DNA of 64,000 nt. Source: Clostridia bacterium (lineage in GTDB: Bacteria; Bacillota; Clostridia; Oscillospirales; Acutalibacteraceae). Positions 1-14,661 of the stretch are shown here, piece by piece (the first letter of the stretch is position 1; every line of letters starts with the position of its first letter). The translations under genes and the position numbers were made by a program. The stretch lies in NCBI GenBank assembly GCA_017618135.1, contig JAFZUV010000002.1:115277-179276 (forward strand), written 5' to 3'. The notes beneath the pieces are model-generated. The model saw nothing but the letters and a program-made list of their open reading frames with translations. It made no database searches and was not told where the DNA came from.

Positions 1-1366
1 AAACACTCTCGGCGTATTCTTTCAGGTAATCTACCATCGAGTGTCCCACCGCATCCGAAAATGCCGCTTTTTCACGCCACAAAATGCTGTCAGGCAAGTA
101 GCCAAGTCCTTCAAATGCGTGTCGTAAAAGGTATTTACCCTTGCCGTATTTATTTACCTTCATTTCGGGGTCAAGGTTTATTACATACTTTGCAAAATCA
201 AGGTCGCCAAACGGCACTCGCGCTTCAAGCGAGTTTACCGAAATACAACGGTCAGCACGAAGCACATCGTACATATGAAGCTCTCTGACCCGCTTTTCGG
301 ACTCTTTTTGGAACTCCTCGGCACTCGGTGCAAAATCAGTATATTTATAACCGAATAATTCATCTGATATTTCGCCTGTAAGAAGCACCCTGATGTCAGT
401 GCTTTCGTGTATAGCCTTGCAGATAAGATACATACCCATACTAGCTCTGATAGTGGTAATATCATAAGTTCCAAGCAGTTGTATTACTTCTTCGAGCGAC
501 GAAATAACTTCGTCGGGGGTTATATAAACTTCTGTATGTTCAGCGCCTATGAAATCTGCCACCTGACGGGCGTATTTAAGGTCAATAGCATCTTCGCTCA
601 TACCTATCGCAAAGGTCTTTATAGGCTTTTTGCTTTCTCTTGCGGCAACAGCGCAGACAAGAGAGGAATCAAGTCCGCCCGAAAGCAGGAAGCCCACTTT
701 TGCGTCTGCTACAAGTCTTTTTTTAACTCCCGTTATCAGCTTTTTTCTGATGTTTTTGCAGGCGGTTTCCAAATCATCGCTGCAAACGCTGTCCGCTTTC
801 GATATATCGTTATAGCAAATAAACTTGCCGCCTTTATAATAATGACCGGGCGGAAACGGCATTATTTTTTTGCAAATATCCACAAGGTTTTTAGGCTCGC
901 TTGCGAAGATTATGGCGCCGTTTTTGTCGTATCCGAAATATAGCGGTCTGATACCGATAGGGTCGCGCGCGGCTATCCATTCATTACTTCTTCCGTCATA
1001 TATTATGCAGGCAAATTCGGCGTCAAGCATATTAAACATATCTGTTCCGTATTCAAAATAAAGAGGAAGAAGTATCTCACAATCGCTGTCGCTATTAAAC
1101 TCGTAGCCCTTTTTTATAAGCTCTTTCCTTTGCTCGGCAAAGCCGTACAACTCCCCGTTACATACGGCTACGCAACCGTTTAAAATAAACGGTTGCATAC
1201 CTTCTTCGTGGAGCCCCATAATTGAAAGTCTGTGAAAGCCTAAAACTCCGGATTTTACTTCTATAATTCTGCTGTCGTCGGGCCCGCGAGATTTTGTCTG
1301 AGCGAATCCTTTTTTGAATGCGGCTTCGTCTGAGATTTCGCCGCAATATCCTATAACTGAACACAT
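1..1366 (-). CDS. asnB: Asparagine synthetase (glutamine-hydrolysing), C-terminus outside window
   Basis: Makes asparagine from aspartate, ATP and glutamine-derived ammonia in the cytoplasm. The reading frame starts at an ATG (1364-1366) after a GGGTGG ribosome binding site and runs off the left edge after about 455 codons. The protein begins M-C-S-V-I-G-Y-C-G, placing the Ntn-type glutaminase nucleophile at Cys2. An N-terminal class II amidotransferase domain is followed by the synthetase domain with the ATP-binding P-loop SGGLDSS near residue 245. It is the third gene of the leftward glnN-amt-asnB operon (15-nt gap to amt), so it should share the ANTAR-type leader upstream of glnN. Family assignment is secure. 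The missing C-terminus cannot be judged. Confidence 0.93.
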   Translation of the reverse strand, partial: MCSVIGYCGEISDEAAFKKGFAQTKSRGPDDSRIIEVKSGVLGFHRLSIMGLHEEGMQPFILNGCVAVCNGELYGFAEQRKELIKKGYEFNSDSDCEILLPLYFEYGTDMFNMLDAEFACIIYDGRSNEWIAARDPIGIRPLYFGYDKNGAIIFASEPKNLVDICKKIMPFPPGHYYKGGKFICYNDISKADSVCSDDLETACKNIRKKLITGVKKRLVADAKVGFLLSGGLDSSLVCAVAARESKKPIKTFAIGMSEDAIDLKYARQVADFIGAEHTEVYITPDEVISSLEEVIQLLGTYDITTIRASMGMYLICKAIHESTDIRVLLTGEISDELFGYKYTDFAPSAEEFQKESEKRVRELHMYDVLRADRCISVNSLEARVPFGDLDFAKYVINLDPEMKVNKYGKGKYLLRHAFEGLGYLPDSILWREKAAFSDAVGHSMVDYLKEYAESV

Positions 1367-1381
1367 AAAACCACCCTTGTA

Positions 1382-3136
1382 TTACTCCACATCCTGAAGC
1401 GCATCGTAACCCTCTTCGCCCGTGCGCACCTTTACGGCGTTTTCAACATCGTAAACAAATATCTTGCCGTCTCCGATATGTCCGGTATAGAGCACCTTTT
1501 TGGCTGTTTCTATAACGCTTCTCACCGGCACTTTGCTTACAACTATATCGACCTGAATTTTAGGCAATAGATTTGCCTCTACCTGAACGCCTCTGTAATA
1601 TTCGGGCTGACCTTTTTGCGCTCCGCAGCCTAATACATGAGATACCGTCATACCGGTAATACCTATATTCATCATTGCGTTTTTAAGTGCCTCAAAGCGC
1701 GGTTCTTTGCAAACTATTTCTATTTTTGTGAGCTTCGGAGTGCCGTCGTCAAAGGTCGGCACTTTTTTAACCGGTATTGCTTCCGACACAGGTGTTTCAC
1801 CTGTTACCGCAACAGCATTTTCATATCCGTAATCAATGCTTTCAACGGCAGGGACAAAATCGGCATACGCGCTCGGAAGACCGTGTTCTGTTTTATCAAG
1901 ACCTTTTATTTCTTCCTCCACAGTAACGCGAAGCCCTATCGTCTTTTTGATTATTAAGAATGTTGCGGTCATCATAACCGCCGTCCAACCGAGAATTGCG
2001 GTAATACCTAAGAGTTGAACGCCCAAAAGCCGGAAACTGCCGGTGTAAAAGAGACCGTTTAATCCTGCCGGGGCAGATGGATTTGCAAGCAGCCCTACCG
2101 CAATCGTTCCCCAAACGCCGTTTGCCAAATGAACACCTACGGCACCTACGGGATCGTCAACATGAAGCTTTATATCTAAAAGCTCTACGACAAATACTAC
2201 AAGGAAGCCTGAAACAACACCGACAACCGTTGAGCCAATCGCGTCAAGAGCGTCACAACCGGCGGTTATACCCACAAGACCGGCAAGAGAAGCGTTTATA
2301 CACATAGAAACATCGGGTTTGCCGTTTTTTAACCAGGTGAAAATCATAGTTATACAGGTGGCAACCGCAGGTGCTATTGTTGTAGTTACAAAAATTGAGG
2401 CGAGAGAATTGTTATCCCAAGCGGCGGCGCCGTTAAAACCGTACCAACCAAACCAAAGAATAAAGCAGCCAAGCGCGCCGAGTGTTATCGAGTGACCGGG
2501 AATGGCGTTTACCTTTTTAACCTTTTTATCTTCACCTTTTATGTATTTGCCGAGTCGGGGACCTACCATTACAGCACCGATAAGAGCTGTAATCCCGCCT
2601 ACCGAATGTATAGCGGCACTGCCGGCAAAATCGTGAAAGCCGAGACCGATAAGCCAACCTTTACTGTTCCAAACCCAACCTGCCTCTATGGGGTAAACAA
2701 AGAGAGAAATAACACCTGAATAAATGCAGTAGGAAATAAACTTTGTTCTTTCCGCCATAGCGCCGGAAACTATCGTTGCCGCTGTTGCGCAGAAAACAAG
2801 GTTAAACACGAAGGAAGGCGCCGCTCCGCTTTTAAGAAAGCCGCCGAAATCGGTCAGTATTTTGAAATTGGGAACACCTATAAACCCGAAAGCATAATCC
2901 TCCGCCATCATAAGCGAAAAACCAATTAGTACAAACACAACTGTACCGATACAGAAGTCCATAAGATTTTTCATAATAATATTTCCGGCGTTTTTAGCTC
3001 GTGTAAATCCGGTTTCCACCATAGCAAATCCTGCCTGCATAAAGAACACAAGCGCCGCGCCGATGAGAAACCACACTCCGAAAACTTCGCTCGTAGCGGT
3101 TTCTTTTATGAGTTTTACAATTTCTTCTGTCAACAT
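1382..3136 (-). CDS. amt: Ammonium transporter with fused C-terminal P-II (GlnB/GlnK) domain
   Basis: Imports ammonium across the cytoplasmic membrane. Residues 1 to about 430 form an Amt/MEP/Rh channel with multiple membrane helices and Amt signatures such as FQAGFAMVE-like and AGSAAIHSVGG stretches. After a linker, residues about 468-584 are a complete P-II protein, with the T-loop EYYRG motif and the B-loop TGHIGDGKIFV ATP-binding motif. P-II proteins normally exist as separate GlnK trimers that plug Amt, so this fusion tethers the sensor to the channel. ATG at 3136 is preferred over an upstream in-frame GTG (3145) because AAGGGTG lies six bases before it. It follows glnN by 13 nt and precedes asnB. 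No separate glnK is seen in the window. Confidence 0.93.
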   Translation of the reverse strand: MLTEEIVKLIKETATSEVFGVWFLIGAALVFFMQAGFAMVETGFTRAKNAGNIIMKNLMDFCIGTVVFVLIGFSLMMAEDYAFGFIGVPNFKILTDFGGFLKSGAAPSFVFNLVFCATAATIVSGAMAERTKFISYCIYSGVISLFVYPIEAGWVWNSKGWLIGLGFHDFAGSAAIHSVGGITALIGAVMVGPRLGKYIKGEDKKVKKVNAIPGHSITLGALGCFILWFGWYGFNGAAAWDNNSLASIFVTTTIAPAVATCITMIFTWLKNGKPDVSMCINASLAGLVGITAGCDALDAIGSTVVGVVSGFLVVFVVELLDIKLHVDDPVGAVGVHLANGVWGTIAVGLLANPSAPAGLNGLFYTGSFRLLGVQLLGITAILGWTAVMMTATFLIIKKTIGLRVTVEEEIKGLDKTEHGLPSAYADFVPAVESIDYGYENAVAVTGETPVSEAIPVKKVPTFDDGTPKLTKIEIVCKEPRFEALKNAMMNIGITGMTVSHVLGCGAQKGQPEYYRGVQVEANLLPKIQVDIVVSKVPVRSVIETAKKVLYTGHIGDGKIFVYDVENAVKVRTGEEGYDALQDVE

Positions 3137-3149
3137 ATATATCACCCTT

Positions 3150-5246
3150 TTATTTTACGCTGAAGAGTATATCTGCATAGGAGGGATACGGCCAGTAAGA
3201 CTTAGATGTAAGCGTTTCTGCGGTATCGACGGCAAGCCGCAGCTCGCACATCTTAGGCAAAACGCTGTCTCTTATCATTGCTGATTCTTCTATAATATCC
3301 CTTGCGCCGCAAAGTGCGACAATGGCGTTTTTAAGCTCATCGGCGCCCTTTGCGATTTTATCCGTAAGGTCTGAAAGCTTTGAAATAAGACCTGTTTCAT
3401 ATTCGCAGGCTATGTTTGCACGGACCGCTTTTTTAGCTGCGGTATTTTTTGCAACATCTGCTGTGAACAGTTCTACTGCCGGCGCTATCTCGGTTTTCGC
3501 CATATCGACCATCGTGTTAGCCTCAATAGTTACCGACTTGCAGTAGTTTTCGAGCATTATTTCACAACGGGAATTAAGCTCGGCTAACGAGAACACCTTG
3601 TGAGCCGTCAGCATATCCACATTCTTTTTATCAAGCAGGTGCGGCATACAGTCAGCAGTAGTGCGGTAATTTAATAGTCCGCGCTTTTCGGTTGCCTCTT
3701 TTATCCATGCGTCGTCATAGCCGTTGCCGTTAAAGATAATGCGCTTGTGATCTTTGATTGTTTTCTTTATCATATCGTGAAGCGCCGTTTCAAAATCCTT
3801 AGCGCCCTCAAGACGGTCGGCATAGATTTTAAGACTTTCCGCCACAGCACTGTTTAACATAATATTAGCACAAGCTATACTGTTTGACGAGCCGAGCATA
3901 CGGAACTCAAACTTGTTGCCTGTAAAGGCAAAGGGCGAAGTGCGGTTACGGTCTGTTGTATCACGGTTAAATTTAGGCAGGACATCAACGCCTAATTTCA
4001 TCTGTGTTTTTTCTGCTCCCTTATAAGGGGTATCATTTTCGATTGCTTCCAAAACCGCGTTTAATTCGTCGCCTAAGAATATTGAAATCACTGCCGGCGG
4101 CGCTTCGTTTGCACCGAGCCTGTGGTCGTTTCCGGCGGTGGCTACCGAAATACGCAACAAATCCTGATAATCGTCAACCGCTTTTATGACCGCACACAGA
4201 AACAGTAAAAACTGTGCGTTTTCATACGGTGTATCTCCCGGAGATAAGAGGTTCTGACCTTTGTCGGTAGATATAGACCAGTTGTTGTGTTTGCCAGAGC
4301 CGTTAACCCCTGCGAACGGCTTTTCGTGAAGTAAGCATACAAGGCCGTGCTTGGCTGCAATTTTCTGCATAATTTCCATTGTAAGTTGGTTGTGGTCGGT
4401 TGCCACATTGGTAGTGGTATAAATAGGCGCTAATTCGTGTTGTGCAGGCGCCACTTCGTTATGCTCGGTTTTTGCAAGAATTCCGAGTTTCCATAATTCC
4501 TCGTTTAATTCTTCCATATATGCGGCAACTCGCGGTTTAATAACGCCAAAGTAGTGGTCGTCCATCTCCTGACCTTTCGGCGGCTTTGCTCCGAAAAGCG
4601 TTCTGCCGGTAAAGCGAAGATCAGGGCGTGCGTCATACATTTCTTTGGTGATAAGAAAATACTCCTGCTCAGGACCCACAGAGGACACTATGCGCTTCAC
4701 GCTATCGTTTCCGAAAAGGTGTAAAACACGAATGGCCTGTTTACTGAGTGCCTCCATTGAACGAAGAAGCGGCGTTTTCTTATCAAGCGCGTGACCGCTG
4801 TATGAGCAGAAGGCGGTAGGAATACATAAAGTCTTTCCTTTAATAAACGCATAAGAAGTCGGGTCCCACGCGGTATAACCTCTCGCTTCGAAGGTAGCGC
4901 GGAGTCCGCCTGACGGAAAACTCGACGCGTCCGGTTCACCTTTTATAAGTTCTTTCCCTGAAAACTCCATAATAACGCCGCCGTCAGGCGAGGGAGCAAT
5001 AAAACTATCGTGTTTTTCCGCCGTGATGCCGGTAAGTGGCTGGAACCAGTGCGTAAAATGAGTTGCGCCCTTTTCAATCGCCCAATCTTTCATAGCGGCG
5101 GCAACCGCATTTGCAACTCCGATATCAAGCGCGGCGCCTTCTTCAATGGTCTTTTTAAGTGAAGCGTAAACCTTTGCGCTGAGAGTAGCCTTCATAATTC
5201 TGTCGTCAAATACTAAGCTTCCGAAATAGTCTTTTACCGTTTTCAT
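3150..5246 (-). CDS. glnN: Glutamine synthetase type III
   Basis: Condenses glutamate and ammonia to glutamine using ATP. The 698-residue length and the sequence match the GSIII (GlnN) family, which is far longer than GSI. Visible GSIII features include [20 protein letters not shown], the [10 protein letters not shown] segment and the [16 protein letters not shown] catalytic stretch. The ATG at 5246 follows AAGGAG by eight bases. It is the first gene of the leftward operon with amt and asnB. Its transcript starts with a leader of about 140 nt holding two ANTAR-type hexaloop hairpins and a terminator, so expression is probably controlled by antitermination. A second, type I enzyme lies in the divergent operon. 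Confidence 0.96.
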
Positions 5247-5266
5247 AATTTAAATCTCCTTTGCCG

Positions 5267-5306
5267 AAAAAAGAAAAAGCGTCCTTCGTAAAACTACGAA
5301 AGACGC
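5267..5306 (-). terminator. Leader terminator upstream of glnN
   Basis: A 12-bp stem (GCGTCTTTCGTA paired with TACGAAGGACGC, one G-U) with a four-base loop is followed by a run rich in T (TTTTTCTTTTTT). It lies only about 20 nt before the glnN start codon, so it must be conditional. Its 5' arm shares bases with the 3' arm of hexaloop hairpin 2 (5299-5316), so the two structures exclude each other. Confidence 0.9.
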
Positions 5307-5316
5307 CTTTGCCTTT
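5299..5316 (-). promoter_or_regulatory. ANTAR-type hexaloop hairpin 2 in glnN leader
   Basis: Eighteen bases fold as AAAGGC / AAAGGC loop / GTCTTT: six base pairs closed by C-G with one G-U, and a six-base loop with A at position 1 and G at position 4. This matches the hexanucleotide-loop motif known for RNA targets of ANTAR proteins. Formation removes the 5' arm of the downstream terminator. Confidence 0.75.
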
Positions 5317-5362
5317 TTTCCATATTAAAATGAGATAACGGCACCGTTAAGCTAAAAAACTT

Positions 5363-5380
5363 AAAGACGCCGTTGCCTTT
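5363..5380 (-). promoter_or_regulatory. ANTAR-type hexaloop hairpin 1 in glnN leader
   Basis: Same fold as hairpin 2: AAAGGC, loop AACGGC (A1, G4), GTCTTT. It lies close to the predicted transcript start (about 5384). The loop AACGGC is fully complementary to GCCGTT at 5337-5342 downstream, so an alternative hairpin could hide this loop. Confidence 0.72.
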
Positions 5381-5390
5381 TATGTGGCGT

Positions 5391-5419
5391 ATTATACAAC
5401 CGTTTTTTTTACTTGTCAA
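5391..5419 (-). promoter_or_regulatory. Promoter of the glnN-amt-asnB operon
   Basis: A perfect -35 TTGACA (5414-5419) is 17 bp from a perfect -10 TATAAT (5391-5396). The expected start is near 5384. It is back to back with the glutamate synthase promoter, the two -35 boxes being 29 bp apart in an A/T-rich stretch. Confidence 0.9.
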
Positions 5420-5448: not shown

Positions 5449-5477
5449 TTGACAAACCGGCATTCCGCGCGTATAAT
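5449..5477 (+). promoter_or_regulatory. Promoter of the glutamate synthase operon
   Basis: TTGACA (5449-5454), 17-bp spacer, TATAAT (5472-5477). The expected start is near 5485, immediately before the hexaloop hairpin. No second promoter is evident before the first gene. Confidence 0.9.
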
Positions 5478-5485
5478 ATGAGCCA

Positions 5486-5547
5486 ATGAGCAAAGGCGTT
5501 CATTTTTACGCGGAATTATCCGCGTAAAAACGGGCGCTCTTTTTTTA
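5486..5547 (+). promoter_or_regulatory. Hexaloop hairpin overlapping a conditional terminator, glutamate synthase leader
   Basis: Positions 5486-5503 fold as ATGAGC / loop AAAGGC / GTTCAT, again a six-base loop with A1 and G4 closed by C-G and G-U. The segment 5496-5537 instead forms a long stem (GCGTTC, an A.C mismatch, then TTTTTACGCGGA, loop ATTA) followed by TCTTTTTTT, an intrinsic terminator. The two share bases 5496-5503. Only one strict hexaloop is visible here, unlike the pair before glnN. Confidence 0.75.
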
Positions 5548-5568: not shown

Positions 5569-6663
5569 ATGAAAAAAGAGGGCGAAACAAGAATACCGTC
5601 CGGCTGCGCTATTGCGGCGGTAATATCCAAAACCGGTAAATTGATGACGGGTCAAAGAATTGTAAAGGCTATGGAGCCTATGCACGATCGCTCAAACGGT
5701 CTCGGCGGCGGCTTTGCGGCCTACGGCATTTATCCGGAGCATCGCGACTTTTACGCATTCCATATGTTTTTTGATTGCCGCGATACAAGAAAAAAGTGCG
5801 AGGCTTTCTTAAAAGAGCATTTCGAGGTTGTAAAGGGTGAAATCATACCCACGCGAAAAATACCCGAAATTACCGACGAGCCGATTATATGGCGTTATTT
5901 CGTGACGCCGCTTAAATCCGTACTTGCCGATTTACAGCTTGACGAAAAGGAATTTGTCGCCCGGACGGTTGTAAAAATCAATAATGAATTAAACGGTGCC
6001 TATGTCTTTTCAAGCGGCAAAAATATGGGAACATTCAAGGCTGTGGGCTTCCCCGAGGATGTCGGAAGATTTTATAGGCTTGACGAATACGAGGGCTACA
6101 GTTGGACCGCGCACGGCAGATATCCCACAAACACGCCGGGCTGGTGGGGCGGCGCTCATCCGTTTACTCTGCTTGATTTTTCGGTGGTTCATAACGGAGA
6201 AATATCGTCATATGACGCAAACCGCCGTTTTATTGAAATGTTTGGGTATAAATGTAATTTGCAGACCGATACGGAGGTTATTACATATATACTTGATTAT
6301 CTTATCCGCCGACAGGGGTTGACATTAGGCGAGGCAGCAAGCGTAATAGCGGCACCGTTCTGGAGTACGATTGACGGCAAAACCGATGAATACGATAAAG
6401 AAAAACACAACTATCTGCGAACGGTTTTTCCAAGTTTGCTTGTAACCGGACCTTTTTCAATAGTTTTAGGCTTTGACGGCGGACTTATGGCGCTTAATGA
6501 CCGATTAAAGCTTCGCTCAATGGTAGTAGGCGAAAAAGATGACAAGGTATTTATAGCAAGTGAAGAGGCGGCAATAAGGGTAATGGAGCCGGAAGCTGAA
6601 AATATCTGGTCGCCCGCCGGCGGAGAACCGGTGATAGTTAAGATAAAAGAGGGGGATTTTTAA
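5569..6663 (+). CDS. Glutamate synthase subunit, class II glutamine amidotransferase domain (GltB N-terminal type)
   Basis: Releases ammonia from glutamine for a multi-subunit glutamate synthase. The 364-residue protein corresponds to the N-terminal amidotransferase domain of large GltB. The likely nucleophile is Cys13 in PSGCAIAA, so a short propeptide probably has to be removed. A GRYPTNTPGWWGGAHPF segment and HNGEISSY motif fit the glutaminase fold. ATG 5569 follows GAGGGTG. It is the first gene after the ANTAR-type leader, and its stop overlaps the start of the next gene by one base. Confidence 0.9.
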   Translation: MKKEGETRIPSGCAIAAVISKTGKLMTGQRIVKAMEPMHDRSNGLGGGFAAYGIYPEHRDFYAFHMFFDCRDTRKKCEAFLKEHFEVVKGEIIPTRKIPEITDEPIIWRYFVTPLKSVLADLQLDEKEFVARTVVKINNELNGAYVFSSGKNMGTFKAVGFPEDVGRFYRLDEYEGYSWTAHGRYPTNTPGWWGGAHPFTLLDFSVVHNGEISSYDANRRFIEMFGYKCNLQTDTEVITYILDYLIRRQGLTLGEAASVIAAPFWSTIDGKTDEYDKEKHNYLRTVFPSLLVTGPFSIVLGFDGGLMALNDRLKLRSMVVGEKDDKVFIASEEAAIRVMEPEAENIWSPAGGEPVIVKIKEGDF

Positions 6664-8168
6664 TGTCTGTAAATTTTATATATCCCGAATTTGAAGTTAT
6701 AAGAAATATGGACCGTTGCATCGCCTGCCGCGTATGTGAGCGGCAGTGTGCTAACGAGGTACATATGTTCAGCACCGAACGCGGCATAATGATAAGCGAT
6801 GAAAGCAAGTGCGTAAACTGCCAGCGGTGCGTGTCGCTTTGCCCGACAAGGGCGCTAAAAATAGTAAAAAGCGATTGTAGGATCCGCGAAAACGCCAACT
6901 GGCAGAACGATACCATAAACGAAATATACAAGCAGGCGGCAAGCGGCGGAGTACTGCTTTCCTCTATGGGAAATCCAAAGCCTTTGCCGGTTTACTGGGA
7001 TAAGATTTTACTCAACGCCTCACAGGTAACAAACCCACCTATAGACCCGCTTCGTGAGCCTATGGAAACTAAGGTGTTTTTAGGAAAAAAGCCCAATACG
7101 ATTACAAGGGACAAAAACGGTAAAATTGACTGTACGCTCTCTCCTCAAATAGTTCTTTCAATGCCCTTAATGTTTTCCGCTATGAGTTACGGTTCTATAA
7201 GCTATAACGCCCACGCGTCGCTTGCCCGCGCCGCAAGCGCGCTCGGTATTCTATATAACACCGGCGAGGGCGGTCTGCACGAAGATTTTTATAAATACGG
7301 TGCTAACACGATTGTTCAGGTGGCTTCGGGGCGCTTCGGCGTTCACGAGGACTATTTAAGTACCGGTGCCGCTATTGAGATAAAAATGGGACAAGGCGCA
7401 AAGCCGGGTATCGGCGGTCATCTGCCGGGAGCAAAAATCGTGGGTGATGTATCGAGAACAAGAATGATACCCGAAGGATCGGACGCTATTTCTCCGGCGC
7501 CTCACCACGATATTTATTCAATAGAGGATTTACGGCAGTTGGTATTTTCGCTTAAAGAGGCAACTCAGTATAAAAAGCCGGTAATAGTTAAGGTTGCCGC
7601 TGTGCATAACATTGCCGCCATTGCAAGCGGAATTGCGCGAAGCGGCGCGGATATAATCGCCATAGACGGCTTTCGAGGCGGCACCGGCGCCGCGCCTACA
7701 AGAATACGGGATAATGTTGGAATACCTATTGAACTGGCGCTTGCCGCTGTTGACAGCAGACTCAGAGAAGAAGGAATAAGAAATAATGTATCACTGGTAG
7801 TGGGCGGTTCCATTCGCAGTGCTGCGGATGTGGTAAAGGCGGTGGCGCTGGGCGCAGACGCTTGTTATATAGCCACAGCGGCTTTAATTGCTCTCGGCTG
7901 TCACCTTTGCAGAACATGCCAGTCAGGCAAATGCAACTGGGGTATTGCAACACAGCACCCGGATCTTGTAAAACGGCTTAATCCCGATATGGGCGCTGAG
8001 CGCCTTATAAATCTTATGACTGCGTGGCAACACGAAATCAAAGAAATAATGGGCGGTATGGGTATAAATTCTATTGAGGCGCTTCGCGGTAATCGACTTA
8101 TGCTTCGCGGCGTAGGACTAAACTCAAAAGAACTCGAAATACTCGGTATTTCTCATGCGGGAGAGTGA
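6663..8168 (+). CDS. Glutamate synthase central subunit with N-terminal ferredoxin domain (FMN-binding)
   Basis: Catalytic subunit that binds FMN and 2-oxoglutarate and forms glutamate. Residues about 15-70 hold two 4Fe-4S motifs (CIACRVCERQC and CVNCQRCVSLCP). The remainder is the glutamate synthase FMN barrel, with GEGGLHEDF, GQGAKPGIGGHLPG and DGFRGGTGAAPTRIRDNVG motifs, and a Cys cluster near CHLCRTCQSGKC that fits the 3Fe-4S site. At 501 residues it matches archaeal-type GltB proteins lacking the amidotransferase and GXGXG domains, which are separate genes on either side. Confidence 0.93.
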   Translation: MSVNFIYPEFEVIRNMDRCIACRVCERQCANEVHMFSTERGIMISDESKCVNCQRCVSLCPTRALKIVKSDCRIRENANWQNDTINEIYKQAASGGVLLSSMGNPKPLPVYWDKILLNASQVTNPPIDPLREPMETKVFLGKKPNTITRDKNGKIDCTLSPQIVLSMPLMFSAMSYGSISYNAHASLARAASALGILYNTGEGGLHEDFYKYGANTIVQVASGRFGVHEDYLSTGAAIEIKMGQGAKPGIGGHLPGAKIVGDVSRTRMIPEGSDAISPAPHHDIYSIEDLRQLVFSLKEATQYKKPVIVKVAAVHNIAAIASGIARSGADIIAIDGFRGGTGAAPTRIRDNVGIPIELALAAVDSRLREEGIRNNVSLVVGGSIRSAADVVKAVALGADACYIATAALIALGCHLCRTCQSGKCNWGIATQHPDLVKRLNPDMGAERLINLMTAWQHEIKEIMGGMGINSIEALRGNRLMLRGVGLNSKELEILGISHAGE

Positions 8169-8172
8169 TAAT

Positions 8173-8613
8173 ATGAAGCGTGTATATGTAAATGAAGAAT
8201 GGTGTCTCGGTTGTCATTTATGCGAATATAATTGTGCTTTTGCCAATTCGGGACTGAATGATATGGCTTTTGCGCTTAAAGATAAAAAGATTTATCCGCG
8301 CATTCATATTGAAGACGGAGACAAGATATGCTTTGCCGTATCCTGCCGTCATTGCGCCGACCCGATTTGCGTGAAAAGCTGTATTGCCGGCGCCATTTCA
8401 AAGGTGGACGGCGTTGTAAAAATAGACCGCGGCAAATGCGTAGGGTGTCTTACCTGCGTGCTTGTGTGTCCTTACGGTGCGCTGGCTCCGGGTGAAAACG
8501 GAACTATGCAGAAATGCGAGTTGTGCCTTGAAAACGCATGCGGCGCGCCCGCGTGCGTTACAGGTTGCCCTAATAAAGCAATAGTCTATGAGGAAAGGGG
8601 CGAGGAAAAGTGA
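8173..8613 (+). CDS. 4Fe-4S ferredoxin-type electron transfer subunit of glutamate synthase
   Basis: A 146-residue iron-sulfur protein with four cysteine clusters (CLGCHLCEYNC, CRHCADPICVKSC, CVGCLTCVLVC, CELC...CVTGC), like HycB/NuoI-type multi-cluster ferredoxins. It probably passes electrons between the flavoprotein encoded next and the FMN subunit. ATG 8173 is chosen because GGGAGAG lies just upstream. The stop overlaps the next start (GTGA type). Confidence 0.88.
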   Translation: MKRVYVNEEWCLGCHLCEYNCAFANSGLNDMAFALKDKKIYPRIHIEDGDKICFAVSCRHCADPICVKSCIAGAISKVDGVVKIDRGKCVGCLTCVLVCPYGALAPGENGTMQKCELCLENACGAPACVTGCPNKAIVYEERGEEK

Positions 8614-9842
8614 AAAGTTATGTAATTATCGGCAACGGTACTGCCGCCGTCGGCTGTATTGAAGGGATACGCTGTGTTGATAAAGGCGGTGAAATAACCG
8701 TTATATCAAAAGAAAAACATCCGGTTTACAGTCGCCCGCTTATTTCTTATTATCTTGAGGGTAAGACCGATTGTGAACGAATGAAATACAGAGGCGACTC
8801 GTTTTATAAAGACAATAAATGCAAGGTGCTTTACGGCGCCGTCGCCGATATGATAGATAAAGATGATAAATCGGTGCGGTTAAACAGCGGAAATAAGCTT
8901 TCGTATGACGCGCTTTGTGTCGCCGCAGGCTCGGAACCTTTTGTGCCGCCGTTTGAAGGACTCAATACAGTAGACAGCAAGTTTTCTTTTATGACTCTTG
9001 ACGACGCATTATCCCTTGAAGACACACTTAAAAGTGAATCGCGTGTGCTGATTGTCGGCGCCGGACTTATCGGTCTTAAGTGCGCCGAGGGCATACATAG
9101 CAGAGTTAAAAGCATAACGGTTTGCGATTTGGCGGACAGGGTGCTTTCAAGTATCCTTGACGCCGACTGTGCCTATGCTGTGCAAAAGCATTTAGAAAAA
9201 AACGGCATTAAGTTTATGTTGTCGGATACCGCTGTCGGCTTTAATAAGAACATGGCATATATGAAAAGCGGCAAAAATGTGGAGTTTGATATTTTAGTAT
9301 TGGCGGTCGGTGTCAGGGCAAACACCTCGCTTGTAAAAAACGCTGGAGGAAGTGTAAAACGGGGTATTATAGTAAACGAAAGAATGGAAACCGATATTAA
9401 AGACGTTTTTGCGGCAGGCGACTGTGCTGAGGGGTTCGACTTATCAATTGGCGCAAATCGAGTACTTGCAATCTTGCCAAACGCCTATACGGGCGGCTAT
9501 ACGGCAGGTGTAAATATGGCTGGCGGCAAGGAGGTTTTCAATAACGCAATACCAATGAACTCCATTGGCTTTTTTGGTTATCACATTATGACCGCCGGAA
9601 GTTATGACGGCGAAATGATAGAGGAAAAAGATTCCGCTTCAGTCAAACGCTTTTTTATAAAGGATAATAATTTAATCGGTTTTATCCTCTTAGGCGGTAC
9701 AGATCGGGCCGGTATTTACACTTCGCTTATTCGGGAAAAAACACCACTTGACACTATTGATTTCGAGCTCACAAAAAAAGCCGCTTCAAATTTGATTTTT
9801 AATAAAGAAATTCGTAGAAAAAAGTTTGGAGGTGTGGTATAA
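8610..9842 (+). CDS. NAD(P)/FAD-dependent oxidoreductase, glutamate synthase reductase subunit
   Basis: A 410-residue flavoprotein with an N-terminal FAD-binding GNGTAAVGC motif, an internal NAD(P)-binding GAGLIGLKCAEG motif and the FAD-contacting FAAGDCAEG motif, typical of class I pyridine nucleotide-disulfide oxidoreductases (NirB/rubredoxin reductase-like). By position it replaces the GltD small subunit, reducing the iron-sulfur and FMN subunits. It starts at a GTG overlapping the preceding stop, with GAGGAAA upstream. The operon role is inferred from context. Confidence 0.85.
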   Translation: MKSYVIIGNGTAAVGCIEGIRCVDKGGEITVISKEKHPVYSRPLISYYLEGKTDCERMKYRGDSFYKDNKCKVLYGAVADMIDKDDKSVRLNSGNKLSYDALCVAAGSEPFVPPFEGLNTVDSKFSFMTLDDALSLEDTLKSESRVLIVGAGLIGLKCAEGIHSRVKSITVCDLADRVLSSILDADCAYAVQKHLEKNGIKFMLSDTAVGFNKNMAYMKSGKNVEFDILVLAVGVRANTSLVKNAGGSVKRGIIVNERMETDIKDVFAAGDCAEGFDLSIGANRVLAILPNAYTGGYTAGVNMAGGKEVFNNAIPMNSIGFFGYHIMTAGSYDGEMIEEKDSASVKRFFIKDNNLIGFILLGGTDRAGIYTSLIREKTPLDTIDFELTKKAASNLIFNKEIRRKKFGGVV

Positions 9843-9843
9843 T

Positions 9844-10563
9844 ATGACGACAGACACAAAACTGATGGAATTTCCGGCAATAAATGAGTCTATAAGAAAA
9901 GCCGGAAAAAGCGTTACATTATCCGGCGTTATCGGCCAGCGGTTTATCGGAGCCGGAATGTCGGATAAAATCGTTACCGTAAACGGCGTTCCCGGCAATG
10001 CTCTCGGCGCTTATTTAAACGGCGGAAAAATTGTTGTTTGCGGCAATGCGCAGGACGCCGTAGGCGATACAATGAACGATGGGAAAATCATTGTCCATGG
10101 CAATATAGGCGATGCCGCCGGTTACGCTATGCGCGGTGGAAGTATTTATGTAAAAGGCAACGCCGGATACCGCGCAGGGATACATATGAAAGCGTATAAG
10201 GAAAAAGTGCCGGTTATGGTAATAGGCGGCACCGCAGGAAGCTTTTTAGGCGAATATCAGGCCGGCGGCGTAATAGTAGTTTTGGGACTTAAAAGCAAAG
10301 ATGAAAGAATAGTCGGCAATTTTCCTTGTACAGGTATGCATGGGGGAAGAATGATTTTGCGCTCTGATTGCAGGGATATTGTTTTTCCGGCTCAGGTATC
10401 AAAAAAACCCGCCACACAAAAAGACCTTAAGGAAATAAAAAAATATGTTACGGAATACTGCCGTTTGTTCGGCGATACTGTCGAGGGTATTATGAACTCA
10501 CCATTTATGATTGTTACACCTAACAGTAAAAATCCATATAAGCAGCTATATGTTGCAAATTAA
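9844..10563 (+). CDS. Glutamate synthase GXGXG-domain subunit (GltB C-terminal type)
   Basis: A 239-residue protein made of the right-handed beta-helix GXGXG repeats (GNALGAYLNGG, GDTMNDGKIIVHGNIGDAAGYAMRGG, GNAGYRAGIHM) that forms the structural C-terminal domain of large GltB. It completes the set of separate polypeptides for one glutamate synthase. ATG 9844 is selected because GGAGGTG lies nine bases upstream. glnA starts 14 nt after it. Confidence 0.9.
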   Translation: MTTDTKLMEFPAINESIRKAGKSVTLSGVIGQRFIGAGMSDKIVTVNGVPGNALGAYLNGGKIVVCGNAQDAVGDTMNDGKIIVHGNIGDAAGYAMRGGSIYVKGNAGYRAGIHMKAYKEKVPVMVIGGTAGSFLGEYQAGGVIVVLGLKSKDERIVGNFPCTGMHGGRMILRSDCRDIVFPAQVSKKPATQKDLKEIKKYVTEYCRLFGDTVEGIMNSPFMIVTPNSKNPYKQLYVAN

Positions 10564-10577
10564 AAACGGAGGGTACT

Positions 10578-11789
10578 ATGAATTACTCAAAAGAAGAGGT
10601 TATGCAGTATGTTGCGGAGGAGGATGTAAAATTTATCCGCCTTGCCTTCTCGGATGTGTTCGGCAAACAGAAAAATGTCTCTATTATGCCGGATGAATTG
10701 CCGCGCGCTTTTAAATACGGTATCGCTTTTGACGCATCCGCCATAGCAGGCTTCGGCGACGAGGAGCATTCTGATTTATTTCTGCACCCTGAGCCGGAAA
10801 CGCTCACTTGGCTTCCCTGGCGTCCCGAGCACGGCAAGGTTGTGCGAATGTTCTGCAATATAACATATCCGGACGGCACTCCTTTCCAGTGTGATACAAG
10901 GGGACTTCTGAAAAAAGCGATAGCAGACGCTAAAGATGCCGGATATACCTTCTGTTTCGGTGCTGAGCAGGAGTTTTATCTTATGGAGCTTGATGAAAGG
11001 AACAACCCGACTAAAATCCCGTACGATAATGCCGGATATATGGATATAGCTCCCGAGGACAGAGGCGAAAATGTACGCCGCGAGATTTGCCTTACCCTTG
11101 AGCAAATGGGCATTTTCCCTGAAAGCTCGCACCACGAGGAAGGACCGGGACAAAATGAAATTGACTTCCGATACACCGAAGCGCTTACCGCTGCTGATAA
11201 TGTTATGACATTCCAGACGGTGGTAAAAACCGTAGCGCGCCGAAACGGTCTTTTTGCGGACTTTTCACCCAAGCCGCTTCAAAATACCGCGGGCAACGGT
11301 TTTCATATAAACTGCTCTGTAAAGACGAAGGAATCAACCGCCAATTATAACCTGCTGCTTTCAGGAATACTCGAAAAAGCGATACCTATGACGCTGTTTT
11401 TTAACCCGCAAGAGGATTCATATAAGCGCCTGGGAAATGGAAAGGCGCCGAAATATGTTTCGTGGGGCAATGAAAACCGCTCTCAGCTTATACGCATACC
11501 TGCAGCGGAGGGTGAGTACCGCCGCATAGAACTGCGCTCTCCTGACCCTACAGCAAATCCTTACATTGCATTTGCACTGCTTATCTGGTCCGGTCTTTAC
11601 GGAATGAAACAAAATAAAGAAATGTCTGCGCCGATAGATATAAATGCTTACAAAGCGGATGAAAAAAATATGCAGTACCTGCATAAGCTTCCTGAAGGCA
11701 TAGCCGAGGCAAGGCGTGCTGCACAAAATGACGACTTTATAAAGAAATATATTCCTGCAACGATACTTAATATCTATTGTGCAGAATAG
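10578..11789 (+). CDS. glnA: Glutamine synthetase type I
   Basis: GSI family enzyme with an N-terminal beta-grasp domain and the catalytic GAEQEFYLMELD, SHHEEGPGQNEIDFR, NGFHINCS and NRSQLIRIPA motifs. It is 403 residues, about 40 shorter than typical GSI-alpha, the shortening being in the C-terminal half. An adenylylation-loop tyrosine region like that of GSI-beta is not evident. With the upstream five genes it supplies both halves of the GS-GOGAT cycle from one transcript. ATG follows ACGGAGGG. Activity is probable, but the short C-terminus leaves open a specialised or regulatory role. Confidence 0.92.
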   Translation: MNYSKEEVMQYVAEEDVKFIRLAFSDVFGKQKNVSIMPDELPRAFKYGIAFDASAIAGFGDEEHSDLFLHPEPETLTWLPWRPEHGKVVRMFCNITYPDGTPFQCDTRGLLKKAIADAKDAGYTFCFGAEQEFYLMELDERNNPTKIPYDNAGYMDIAPEDRGENVRREICLTLEQMGIFPESSHHEEGPGQNEIDFRYTEALTAADNVMTFQTVVKTVARRNGLFADFSPKPLQNTAGNGFHINCSVKTKESTANYNLLLSGILEKAIPMTLFFNPQEDSYKRLGNGKAPKYVSWGNENRSQLIRIPAAEGEYRRIELRSPDPTANPYIAFALLIWSGLYGMKQNKEMSAPIDINAYKADEKNMQYLHKLPEGIAEARRAAQNDDFIKKYIPATILNIYCAE

Positions 11790-11825: not shown

Positions 11826-12410
11826 TTGAGTCTGAAAAAACAGGCGTATAGCGTGCTTATTGTATCCGCCGCAGAAAAATTCAACAGCGCAATGCCCGAA
11901 ATCTTTTCCGTTCCTTTGTTTTCTCCGGTCAGTACGGTAAACAATATAAGCGCGGCGAAAAGGGCAATCAGTGAGCGCGATTTTGATATTATTATTGTAA
12001 ATTCCCCCCTGCCTGATGATTACGGACTCCGATTTGCTATCGATACTGTTTCTTCCTATAACACGGTTGTATTATTTCTTGCCAGAGCCGAGCAGTATGA
12101 AAACGCATACGATAAGCTTGCCGAGCACGGCGTATTTTTGCTTCAAAAGCCGACTGCCCGCTCGGTCCTTGAAATTGCTTCCGGTTGGATGGTCAGCGCG
12201 CGCGAGCGGATAAGGAAAACTGAAAAAAAGACACTTTCCATAGAAGAAAAAATGAACGAAATCCGCCTTGTTAACAGAGCAAAATGGTTGCTTATAAGTG
12301 AGCTTAAAATGACCGAACCTGATGCTCACAGATACATAGAAAAACAAGCGATGGATCGTTGTGTTCACAGGCGGCAGGTGGCGGAAGAAATAATTAAAAT
12401 GTATGGATGA
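11826..12410 (+). CDS. ANTAR-domain RNA-binding antiterminator with degenerate receiver domain
   Basis: A 194-residue protein. Residues about 8-115 have the fold of a response-regulator receiver, but the phosphoacceptor position reads IIVNS (Asn59 in place of Asp) and the N-terminal acidic pair is absent (LIVSAAE). Lys108 in the LLQKPT motif is kept. A charged helix leads to an ANTAR domain at about 135-190, with the typical NRAKWLLI, EPDAHRYI and AEEIIKMY helices. ANTAR proteins bind hexaloop RNA hairpins to prevent termination. Two such leaders occur in this locus, making them the likely targets. It starts at TTG with GGGGGAA upstream and is the last gene of the operon. Confidence 0.9.
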   Translation: MSLKKQAYSVLIVSAAEKFNSAMPEIFSVPLFSPVSTVNNISAAKRAISERDFDIIIVNSPLPDDYGLRFAIDTVSSYNTVVLFLARAEQYENAYDKLAEHGVFLLQKPTARSVLEIASGWMVSARERIRKTEKKTLSIEEKMNEIRLVNRAKWLLISELKMTEPDAHRYIEKQAMDRCVHRRQVAEEIIKMYG

Positions 12411-12696: not shown

Positions 12697-14661
12697 ATGA
12701 AAGAAAGAAAACAATCTTTATTTACAAGACTGCGTCTGCGGCTTACGGCTGATGAAATGTTTCACGAAACCGAGGTTCAGGCAAATCGGCTTGGATTCGT
12801 TATACTTTTGTGTAACGGCATAGTTCTTATGCTTGTTGTGGCTTTAACCGCAGTGGGAATTTTCCCTCTGTCGTGGGAAAGTGTTTTTCCGCCGACAATT
12901 CAGGCTATCGTGGAAGTGCTTATTTTGCTTTTTATATGCAAACTCGTGAAAAACGACGCGTGGTGGCTTAAATACCTGCTTATAATAGGTCTTGTTGTTG
13001 TGTATGCAAGACTTGACAGTATGCTTACGCACAAAGCTTCGCTTCTGATGATATTGCCTGTGGTTTTCAGCAGTCGGTATTTTTCAAAGCGACTTACGGT
13101 ATTTACATCTCTGTTTTCCACGGTGGTTTTCTTTTTTTCCGCTTTATGGGGTGCGACGCACGGCTTTATTAACCTGAATATTGTAACTATGCCCGCGGGC
13201 ACCGAAATAACAGCAACTGGCGGATTCTTGGGTGAGGCGGTAAAAAATGCCGGCGCAAGCGATAGAATGCTTATTATAAATACTCTGCTTTACGATTATT
13301 TGCCCAAATGGTTTATGTTTTCAATTACTTCAGTTATTAGCTGCAATATAGCGCGTCGGGGTCGCAATATGGTACTGACGCAGCATGAAAAGGATGTTAA
13401 AACCGCGCGTATAGAGTCTGAGTTAAATCTTGCTACGCGGATACAGGCGGATATGTTGCCTAATACTTTTCCGGCTTTCCCCGGTCGTGTCGAGTTTGAT
13501 ATATATGCTTCTATGGATCCCGCAAAAGAGGTGGGAGGAGACTTTTACGACTTCTTTTTAATAGATGATGACCATTTGTATATGGCTGTGGCAGATGTTT
13601 CGGGTAAAGGCGTACCGGCGGCACTGTTTATGATGGCCTCAAAAATCATTCTGGCAAATAATGCAATAGCGGGTAAAAGTCCGGCACAGATACTTACGGA
13701 TACAAACGCCGCTATTTGTTCTAATAACCGCGAGGAAATGTTTGTAACGGTATGGATTGGAATATTGGAGCTTTCCACCGGAAAGCTTACCGCCGCAAAT
13801 GCGGGGCATGAATATCCTGTTATAAAGAATCCCGACGGTGTGTTTAAACTGCTTAAGGATAAACACGGATTTGTGATCGGGGGTATGTCCGGTATAAAAT
13901 ACAAGGAATACGAATTAACTTTGAGCCCGGGTTCAAAAATTTTTCTTTATACAGACGGCGTACCTGAGGCAACCGATGCTGAAAACCGGCTTTTTGGTGC
14001 GGACAGAATGATACAGGCGCTTAACCAAAAGCCTGAGGCGTCACCGGAGGAAATACTTAAAAACATTAGAAAGTCGGTGGATGACTTCGCAGGCGGTGCT
14101 GAACAATTTGATGATTTAACAATGCTTTGTGTGGAATATACGGGAAATGACAATAACGATGATCATAAACTTACGGGTCGCAATTGCTCTGACAATGCGG
14201 CGCAAACCGAAAAAGGAGTATTGAAACAGTTGCCGGAGGAAAAAGGCAGTCCCAATGAGCTTGACATTGAAGCTGTTGTGGATAATTTGCAAGAGGTGAT
14301 AGAGTTCGTCAACGCACGGCTGGCGGAGGCAAAATGCTCTGCTAAAATGCAAATGCAAATGGATGTGGCTGTTGAGGAAATATTTGTGAATATCTCAAAT
14401 TACGCCTATTCTCCTGATGTCGGTAATGCTACTGTACGAGTAGAGTTTTCAAAAGAGCCGGTTACTGTTACGATAACCTTTGTTGACAGCGGTATTCCGT
14501 ATGATCCGCTTAAAAAAGAAGATCCCGATATTTCGCTTTCCGCGGAAGAAAGAGAAATCGGCGGACTCGGTATTTTTATGACTAAGCGTATGATGGACGA
14601 TGTATACTACGAATATAAAGACGGGAAAAATATACTGAAAATAAGGAAAAATATTGATTAA
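12697..14661 (+). CDS. Membrane PP2C/SpoIIE-type serine phosphatase with C-terminal HATPase (RsbW-like) domain
   Basis: A 654-residue signalling protein. Residues about 25-220 contain several hydrophobic membrane segments. A short helical linker (about 225-250) leads to a SpoIIE/RsbU phosphatase domain at about 255-470, with KEVGGDFYDFF, VADVSGKGVPAALFM, NAGHEYP and FLYTDGVPEA metal-site motifs. Residues about 515-650 form a GHKL ATPase domain like anti-sigma kinases (EEIFVNISNYA N-box, VDSGIPYDP, GGLGIFMTKRM). Having phosphatase and kinase-like modules in one chain suggests control of an anti-sigma-antagonist switch, but no STAS partner is visible here. The MATE fusion gene starts six bases later. 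Confidence 0.85.
   Translation: MKERKQSLFTRLRLRLTADEMFHETEVQANRLGFVILLCNGIVLMLVVALTAVGIFPLSWESVFPPTIQAIVEVLILLFICKLVKNDAWWLKYLLIIGLVVVYARLDSMLTHKASLLMILPVVFSSRYFSKRLTVFTSLFSTVVFFFSALWGATHGFINLNIVTMPAGTEITATGGFLGEAVKNAGASDRMLIINTLLYDYLPKWFMFSITSVISCNIARRGRNMVLTQHEKDVKTARIESELNLATRIQADMLPNTFPAFPGRVEFDIYASMDPAKEVGGDFYDFFLIDDDHLYMAVADVSGKGVPAALFMMASKIILANNAIAGKSPAQILTDTNAAICSNNREEMFVTVWIGILELSTGKLTAANAGHEYPVIKNPDGVFKLLKDKHGFVIGGMSGIKYKEYELTLSPGSKIFLYTDGVPEATDAENRLFGADRMIQALNQKPEASPEEILKNIRKSVDDFAGGAEQFDDLTMLCVEYTGNDNNDDHKLTGRNCSDNAAQTEKGVLKQLPEEKGSPNELDIEAVVDNLQEVIEFVNARLAEAKCSAKMQMQMDVAVEEIFVNISNYAYSPDVGNATVRVEFSKEPVTVTITFVDSGIPYDPLKKEDPDISLSAEEREIGGLGIFMTKRMMDDVYYEYKDGKNILKIRKNID

Follow-up and report, generated by a model that had tools for sequence, protein, structure and literature searches.

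What reads the two small hairpins in front of glnN, and do they act together or separately? The gene encodes a type III glutamine synthetase (3150–5246, minus strand, ATG at 5246) and lies in the window, the whole 64-kb stretch of DNA that was analysed. A preliminary description of its leader had reported two 18-base hexaloop hairpins, one of them overlapping a terminator, and had read them as an ANTAR-type dual-hexaloop antitermination motif. The ANTAR-type part of that reading stands – the hexaloops are exclusive with a terminator, a nitrogen gene follows, and an ANTAR gene is present – while the dual-hexaloop mechanism fits the locus poorly. Judging from sequence comparison, the locus most probably carries an ANTAR attenuation system of single-hexaloop units, with one hexaloop per terminator and a pseudo-receiver ANTAR protein.

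Three hexaloop units at a nitrogen assimilation locus

The host genome is 1.63 Mb in 20 contigs. In the window, a gene for an ammonium transporter-PII fusion (1382–3145, minus strand) begins 4 nt after glnN and is presumed to be in the same operon. An intergenic region of 322 bp separates glnN from a divergent glutamate-synthase-like operon (glt; genes at 5569–10563, plus strand), which encodes an amidotransferase (5569–6663), an Fe-S/glutamate-synthase domain protein (6663–8168), a 4Fe-4S protein (8155–8613), an oxidoreductase (8610–9842) and a GXGXG domain protein (9826–10563). Next comes a second glutamine synthetase gene (10578–11789, plus strand; type I models are closest, with a score below the cut-off). 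It adjoins the ANTAR regulator gene (11826–12410, plus strand), which had rightly been placed at this locus. The encoded protein has a pseudo-receiver and an ANTAR domain (PF03861, 57.7 bits against a cut-off of 27.3), and this is the one ANTAR gene that was found in the genome. Both operons have promoters of the form TTGACA-17-TATAAT with 12 of 12 matches, at 5391–5419 on the minus strand for glnN and divergently at 5449–5477 on the plus strand for glt.

The two putative hexaloop antiterminators of the glnN leader are found exactly where they had been described. Hairpin 1, AAAGGC[AACGGC]GUCUUU (5363–5380, minus strand), has its base 10 nt past the -10 box, and hairpin 2, AAAGGC[AAAGGC]GUCUUU (5299–5316, minus strand), follows after 46 nt, as had been estimated. 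In both, the stem has six pairs and is closed by C-G, and the loop has A and G at positions 1 and 4 (A1/G4). The strong terminator said to overlap hairpin 2 is also there. The loop and 3' arm of the hairpin are shared with a predicted intrinsic terminator (terminator 2; 5275–5310, minus strand) that has a stem of 16 pairs followed by UCUUUUUU, with a U-rich tail stopping about 20 nt upstream of the glnN ATG. The two folds are mutually exclusive, with folding energies of -21.2 kcal/mol for the terminator and -3.5 kcal/mol for the hairpin.

Hairpin 1 has an alternative of its own. Its loop and 3' arm pair with the 46-nt stretch between the two hexaloops to form a terminator-like hairpin (5337–5374, minus strand; 16 pairs, -16.4 kcal/mol), and this fold and the hexaloop are likewise mutually exclusive. 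In the window, the U-rich tail begins about 6 nt past the stem of this hairpin, which may be a weak terminator or a pause hairpin. The U-tract after hairpin 1 is also poor in two related loci, L001 and L004, and the first gate is perhaps weak in all three because the tail starts several nucleotides after the stem. Folding of the whole glnN leader is 8.3 standard deviations below that of shuffled sequences.

The glt leader holds a third hairpin of the same design, absent from the preliminary description. This putative antiterminator, AAUGAGC[AAAGGC]GUUCAUU (5485–5504, plus strand), is mutually exclusive with a predicted terminator (5492–5542, plus strand; -27.7 kcal/mol, then a U-run). Since the base of the hairpin lies 7 nt past the -10 box, there is no room in this leader for a partner P1 hairpin.

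The hexaloop motif alone is weak evidence, because its excess over shuffled sequence is only modest. Hexaloops with a C-G closing pair and A1/G4 on stems of at least 6 bp occur 8 times in the window, while 60 Markov shuffles gave a mean of 2.75 and a maximum of 6; on stems of at least 5 bp there are 13, against 6.8 and a maximum of 15 in 60 shuffles. The evidential weight rests on terminator overlap, conservation and covariation rather than on the motif.

Conservation and covariation in related loci

The best 80 of 555 confirmed loci encoding an ANTAR relative were compared with the window; all were selected for the ANTAR gene. The closest relative of the ANTAR protein is 89% identical, and records very near the window may be left out. 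Gene order is kept among the best 80 where contigs allow, and some loci miss some genes. A glutamine synthetase gene adjoins the ANTAR gene in 76 of these 80, and in the remaining four the contig ends at most about 110 nt upstream of the ANTAR gene. Leaders were usable only where the contig extends to glnN or gltA1.

Tandem hexaloops were found in 39 of 45 glnN leaders and, by the same rule, one unit in the other six (L010, L025, L034, L048, L049, L074). The best 80 loci and the window yielded 39 glt units and 39 tandem pairs in total. In all but six loci the tandem pair precedes glnN itself. In those six it precedes an extra gene and lies about 1.5 kb further upstream, and an additional single unit is found directly in front of glnN. 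Where a locus has exactly two matches (32 loci), the paired hairpins lie 43 nt or more apart; with six-pair stems assumed, all 39 tandem pairs are separated by 44 nt or more. A loose rule finds a U-tract behind every copy of unit 1 and of the glt unit (39 of 39 each) and behind 34 of the 39 copies of unit 2.

The loop signature was examined with the loop left free. From 220 regions upstream of glnN, gltA1 and glnA, 149 C-G-closed hexaloop hairpins overlapping terminators were collected, and 132 of them have both A1 and G4; the next most frequent classes count three hairpins apiece. The preliminary description had named a lack of A1/G4 conservation in homologous leaders as evidence against itself, and the signature is conserved. 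Units were detected at 49 of the 69 core loci and at 16 of the 31 that are more distant; of the loci without a unit, some may offer only the glnA upstream region. A first scan for hexaloop plus terminator was too permissive (267 matches vs 111 in a shuffle) and was rejected.

For the glt leaders, the best unconstrained hairpin with a 6-nt loop was taken from the first 45 nt, anchored on the promoter. Of 46 leaders examined, five had no recognised promoter and 41 were counted. In 38 of these the hairpin has A1/G4 and its base lies 3–9 nt past the -10 box. Among the exceptions, another hairpin scored higher in L016, where a 4-bp GAGC[AAAGGC]GTTC is still there; no hairpin was detected in L025 and L047, where AAAGGC is visible and the stem or closing pair is broken. 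The corresponding scan of glnN (45 leaders, 40 with a promoter) gave A1/G4 in 24 of 38 best hairpins, the apical loop of the terminator often being chosen instead. The hexaloop sequence is visible by eye in 14 of the 16 listed exceptions, all except L044 and L061.

All three terminators show covariation. In the unit-1 terminator 91.3% of alignment cells are paired, against at most 59.3% in slid versions, and nine pairs have changed on both sides, with 46 double-change cells. The unit-2 terminator has 92.3% of cells paired and 48 double-change cells, the glt terminator 93.7% and 7; in each of the three, 0 of 500 shuffles were as high. Because the first alternative hairpin of the relatives covaries strongly and is followed by a U-tract, the glnN leader is read here as a series of two attenuators, each with a single hexaloop.

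The hexaloop stem varies little within one unit type and has no clear covariation there (slight in unit 2). Across unit types, 107 double-change cells were counted (0 of 500 shuffles as high), largely one switch counted repeatedly – both sides of three pairs differ between the glnN form and the glt form (AU60/UA19, AU60/GC20, GC63/AU18) – and the number of double-change pairs and that of pair types are not above shuffles. Across the class, where stems are quite different and every unit was picked by a scan that requires a stem, 94.1% of cells are paired, against at most 48.1% in slid versions. There are 32 double-change cells in this set (0 of 500 shuffles as high), and the covariation score is 0.815 vs 0.285 in shuffles; the number of double-change pairs (114 of 500 shuffles as high) and that of pair types (39 of 500) are not clearly above shuffles. 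The 5' arm lies outside the terminator, and its complementarity to the 3' arm therefore argues for the hexaloop hairpin itself. In the four alignments (A1–A4), loop positions A1, A2 and G4 and the closing GC..GT were fixed by the search pattern and are not evidence.

Some relatives have further features of note. L001 and L004 are two diverged copies of the glnN/glt/ANTAR cluster, both in assembly RUG14768, with glnN genes 94% and 87% identical to that of the window, which suggests a duplication or a mixed bin. In L052 the extra gene upstream of glnN (2001–3335, minus strand) encodes a glutamate dehydrogenase, and a like arrangement of tandem units with a third unit before glnN is seen in L042, L044, L047, L054 and L061. 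L053 has a gene inserted upstream of gltA1 (1135–3723, plus strand), the product of which has a PPDK_N domain. Near its start is a single hexaloop, TGAAGC[AAWGGC]GTTTCA, 11 nt past a promoter-like -10 box (sites of this type have 8–10 of 12 matches), and a similar hexaloop is found near 1100 on the plus strand in L040, L051 and L075. More hexaloops lie behind strong promoter-like sites away from the core genes, in L036 (about 855 and about 928, minus strand) and in L053 (about 12290, minus strand). These off-core hexaloops suggest larger regulons in some relatives.

Single units and the alternatives

In the accessible parts of the papers that describe them, ANTAR targets are dual hexaloops with short linkers (PMC3369931, PMC8934654, PMC8164766). 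The eut linker of Enterococcus faecalis is given as 5–12 nt, with 14 nt already failing, and EutV is described as requiring both hexaloops in vivo (PMC3369931); 20 nt added to the linker abolished antitermination in vitro (PMC8934654), and an actinobacterial survey for dual motifs used linkers of 2–25 nt (PMC8164766). The units described here have the A1/G4 hexaloop on a stem of at least 3 bp and the overlap with the 5' arm of a terminator that mark ANTAR-target RNAs. They do not have two hexaloops with a short linker.

The glnN hexaloops could still form one dual motif, as its P1 and P2, with a long self-folding linker between them and an ANTAR dimer bound to both. The prevalence of tandem hexaloops (39 of 45 glnN leaders) would suit such a motif, and hairpin 1 of the window, with its poor U-tract, might serve as a platform. 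We nevertheless consider it unlikely. The spacing is at least 43–44 nt, whereas EutV antitermination is reported to be lost with longer linkers (PMC3369931, PMC8934654), and the spacer is itself a covarying hairpin that overlaps hexaloop 1. Moreover, six of the 45 glnN leaders have only one unit, and the glt leader has a single hexaloop. The earlier suggestion of one dual motif with an unusually long linker is unsupported for these same reasons.

A direct search was made for dual motifs, in which a second A1/G4 hexaloop was sought 2–16 nt upstream of a terminator-overlapping one. In EutV-like loci there were 12 dual matches, in 9 of 20 loci, against 0 in the Markov control. Six of these loci are convincing by eye, several with a GCAC[..]GTGC / AGGC[..]GCCT pattern; two matches share one P2, and L131, L135 and L141 are doubtful by eye. 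The 81 core loci gave 3 matches vs 2 in the Markov control – two inside gene matches and one the apical loop of a terminator – and 14 further loci of the order gave 0. Among 20 class-level loci, for which no shuffle was run, four matches were flagged: one in the glt leader of L146, where a weak candidate P1 with an AT-only stem lies 7 nt upstream of the hexaloop; one inside a gene match (L157:5485); and two away from nitrogen genes (L147:7149, L157:17192). Single units with other stems lie upstream of glt, glnN or glnA in distant loci, so this architecture is not confined to a single genus.

Published work leaves room for single hexaloops. As far as its available text goes, the EutV structure paper (Walshe 2022, PMC8934654) gives one hexaloop as the minimal binding motif, with both contacted to beat termination, and allows single sites where the time limit set by a transcribing polymerase is absent. 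It also points out that EutX contains a single hexaloop and that mycobacterial stem-loops sometimes depart from the dual motif, and calls for further work on single hexaloops.

Under a second alternative the hairpins are read not by the ANTAR protein, whose gene would be a bystander, but by another factor, either a different RNA-binding antiterminator or an antisense RNA. An antisense RNA is described as controlling ammonium assimilation in Clostridium saccharobutylicum in the accessible part of PMC6316151. The distribution of the units across genomes bears on this. A covariance model (R1) was built from 53 of these hexaloop units and run on 197 genomes of the order, chosen regardless of ANTAR, with 29 candidates scored per genome. 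Sixty-two genomes were R1-positive, and an ANTAR gene is present in 58 of them, compared with 131 of all 197 (Fisher P = 6e-9, uncorrected for relatedness and confounded by phylogeny). The four R1-positive genomes in which no ANTAR gene was detected (G060, G063, G067, G069) would favour another reader. Against it are the 58 of 62, drawn from genomes not selected for ANTAR, the A1/G4 signature of the loops, and the ANTAR gene in 80 of 80 fetched loci, though these were selected for it; in addition, an Rfam scan of the window at gathering scores returned two tRNAs and nothing else. We judge another reader somewhat less probable still than the dual motif. That the hairpins are mere 5' stabilisers and terminators with no regulated switch is highly improbable: hairpins close to the 5' end can stabilise mRNA, but the 5' arm, although outside the terminator, is conserved and shows covariation with the 3' arm, and in unit 1 covariation also links the third loop position to the 3' arm of the terminator (pair 11-50; 11 double-change cells, with 18 of 39 cells unpaired).

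Seventy-three ANTAR-bearing genomes had no R1 match. R1 underestimates the spread of the units, since units with different stems are present in several of 14 loci from R1-negative ANTAR genomes. A search for glnN was made in nine genomes in which no ANTAR gene had been detected. Of these, eight gave near-full or long GSIII matches of 49–66% identity, and G078 gave only a short weak match. In G145, which is of the same genus, the match is a 63% paralogue, so loss of the ANTAR gene seems to accompany loss of this glnN, and the loss test is not clean.

In the host genome of the window, R1 found three matches at E < 1e-4 among 150 scored of 1063 first-look candidates – the three units described above, and no other. 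The fourth-best match (26.7 bits, L085, C9:37175) lies between likely polysaccharide biosynthesis genes. It is probably an ordinary terminator and was not accepted as a regulon target.

The ANTAR protein and a proposed mechanism

The receiver domain of the ANTAR protein aligns with that of Rv1626, and the position of the phospho-accepting Asp is Asn59. All 81 sequences, that of the window among them, have Asn here, as do 19 of the 20 class homologs and at least 5 of the 13 order homologs, while at least 9 of 18 EutV-like proteins have Asp. The acceptor of a phosphorylation-activated response regulator is thus absent, and the activity of the protein is therefore probably set by a protein partner and not by phosphorylation. 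The neighbouring glutamine synthetase is perhaps that partner, and the sensor; this is conjecture.

In the ANTAR domain K153, E164, H168 and M176 are invariant in 81 of 81 sequences (window included) and align with RNA-contact residues of EutV, when the EutV chain numbering is shifted by 2, as seems needed to match the residues in the paper. Lys149, Glu160 and Met172 of EutV are identical and invariant at the matching positions here. EutV Arg142 aligns with Ile146, next to an invariant Arg147. EutV Tyr164, which stacks on G4 in the structure according to the available part of PMC8934654, corresponds to His168, and every close (81), order (13) and class (20) homolog has His at this position; in the 18 EutV-like proteins it is Tyr (14) or Phe (4).

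These features fit a mechanism in which the hexaloop hairpin, with its AANGGC-type loop, and the long intrinsic terminator would compete for the loop and the 3' arm. Without the protein, the more favourable energy of the long terminator would let it prevail, and RNA polymerase would be stopped. When active, presumably upon a nitrogen signal, the ANTAR protein would grip the single hexaloop, with G4 against the residue at the aromatic position, here His168. The bound protein would keep the 5' arm paired and block invasion of the loop and 3' arm by the terminator, and the operon would be transcribed. A hexaloop at the extreme 5' end of the transcript would give the protein time while the terminator of about 50 nt is made. 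The upper terminator hairpin may form without release of the polymerase, the lower part being the contested step. The glt operon would have one gate, at the start of transcription, and the glnN-amt operon two, one behind the other and both with an alternative hairpin of their own, so that basal read-through would be lower. Positive autoregulation of the circuit would follow, as the ANTAR gene is itself part of the glt operon.

The system resembles EutV/eut of Enterococcus faecalis in the A1/G4 hexaloop, the C-G closing pair, the overlap with the 5' arm of the terminator, the ANTAR domain and the nitrogen-related genes. It differs in having one hexaloop per terminator, where eut has two that are 5–12 nt apart, a pseudo-receiver with Asn59 instead of a phosphorylated receiver, and His instead of Tyr at the G4-stacking position. 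AmiR of Pseudomonas aeruginosa is also a pseudo-receiver ANTAR protein. AmiR-AmiC is like the present system in having His at the aligned G4-stacking position and in control by a partner protein, which we infer for the system described here. It has another sensor and another target, and its leader is described as a dual hexaloop in the accessible part of Ramesh 2012 (PMC3369931).

Another parallel is NitR of Clostridium saccharobutylicum, described in the available text of PMC6316151, which gives no RNA target structure for it, as an ANTAR protein whose antitermination activity induces the GS/GOGAT genes. In C. thermocellum, the cluster Clo1313_2030-2036 is reported to combine an ANTAR gene with glutamate synthase genes, and an antiterminator role was suggested there (PMC4676874, as far as accessible). 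Glutamine and glutamate synthase genes are also among the ANTAR targets named in the accessible text of Ramesh 2012 (PMC3369931), and ANTAR control of such genes is not new, given that list and NitR. What appears to be new, as far as the open-access literature searched here goes, is the single-hexaloop attenuator and its serial use; neither an ANTAR-controlled glnN/GSIII leader nor a natural single-hexaloop attenuator was found in that literature. Earlier covariance searches, by the accessible accounts (PMC3369931, PMC8164766), sought dual motifs, so single-hexaloop regulons could be overlooked.

There may be two classes of ANTAR antitermination, a proposal for which we see the case as evenly balanced. 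The EutV class would have Tyr or Phe at G4, often an intact phospho-receiver, and two close hexaloops. The other, which we call NitR-type (a label coined in this analysis, the likeness to NitR being by description only), would have a pseudo-receiver, His, an adjoining glutamine synthetase perhaps acting as sensor, one hexaloop per terminator and serial gates; it would be widespread in nitrogen assimilation of Clostridia and have been missed by dual-motif searches. The conserved leaders in which the mRNA seemingly starts at the hexaloop, with no space for a second one, are natural test cases for single hexaloops, and the glt leader offers a compact system that is ready for testing in vitro.

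Downstream of the ANTAR gene, the window also encodes a MATE-family transporter with a fused C-terminal HATPase_c_2 domain (14667–16418, plus strand), and the gene for a SpoIIE-phosphatase/HATPase_c_2 protein (12697–14661) adjoins it.
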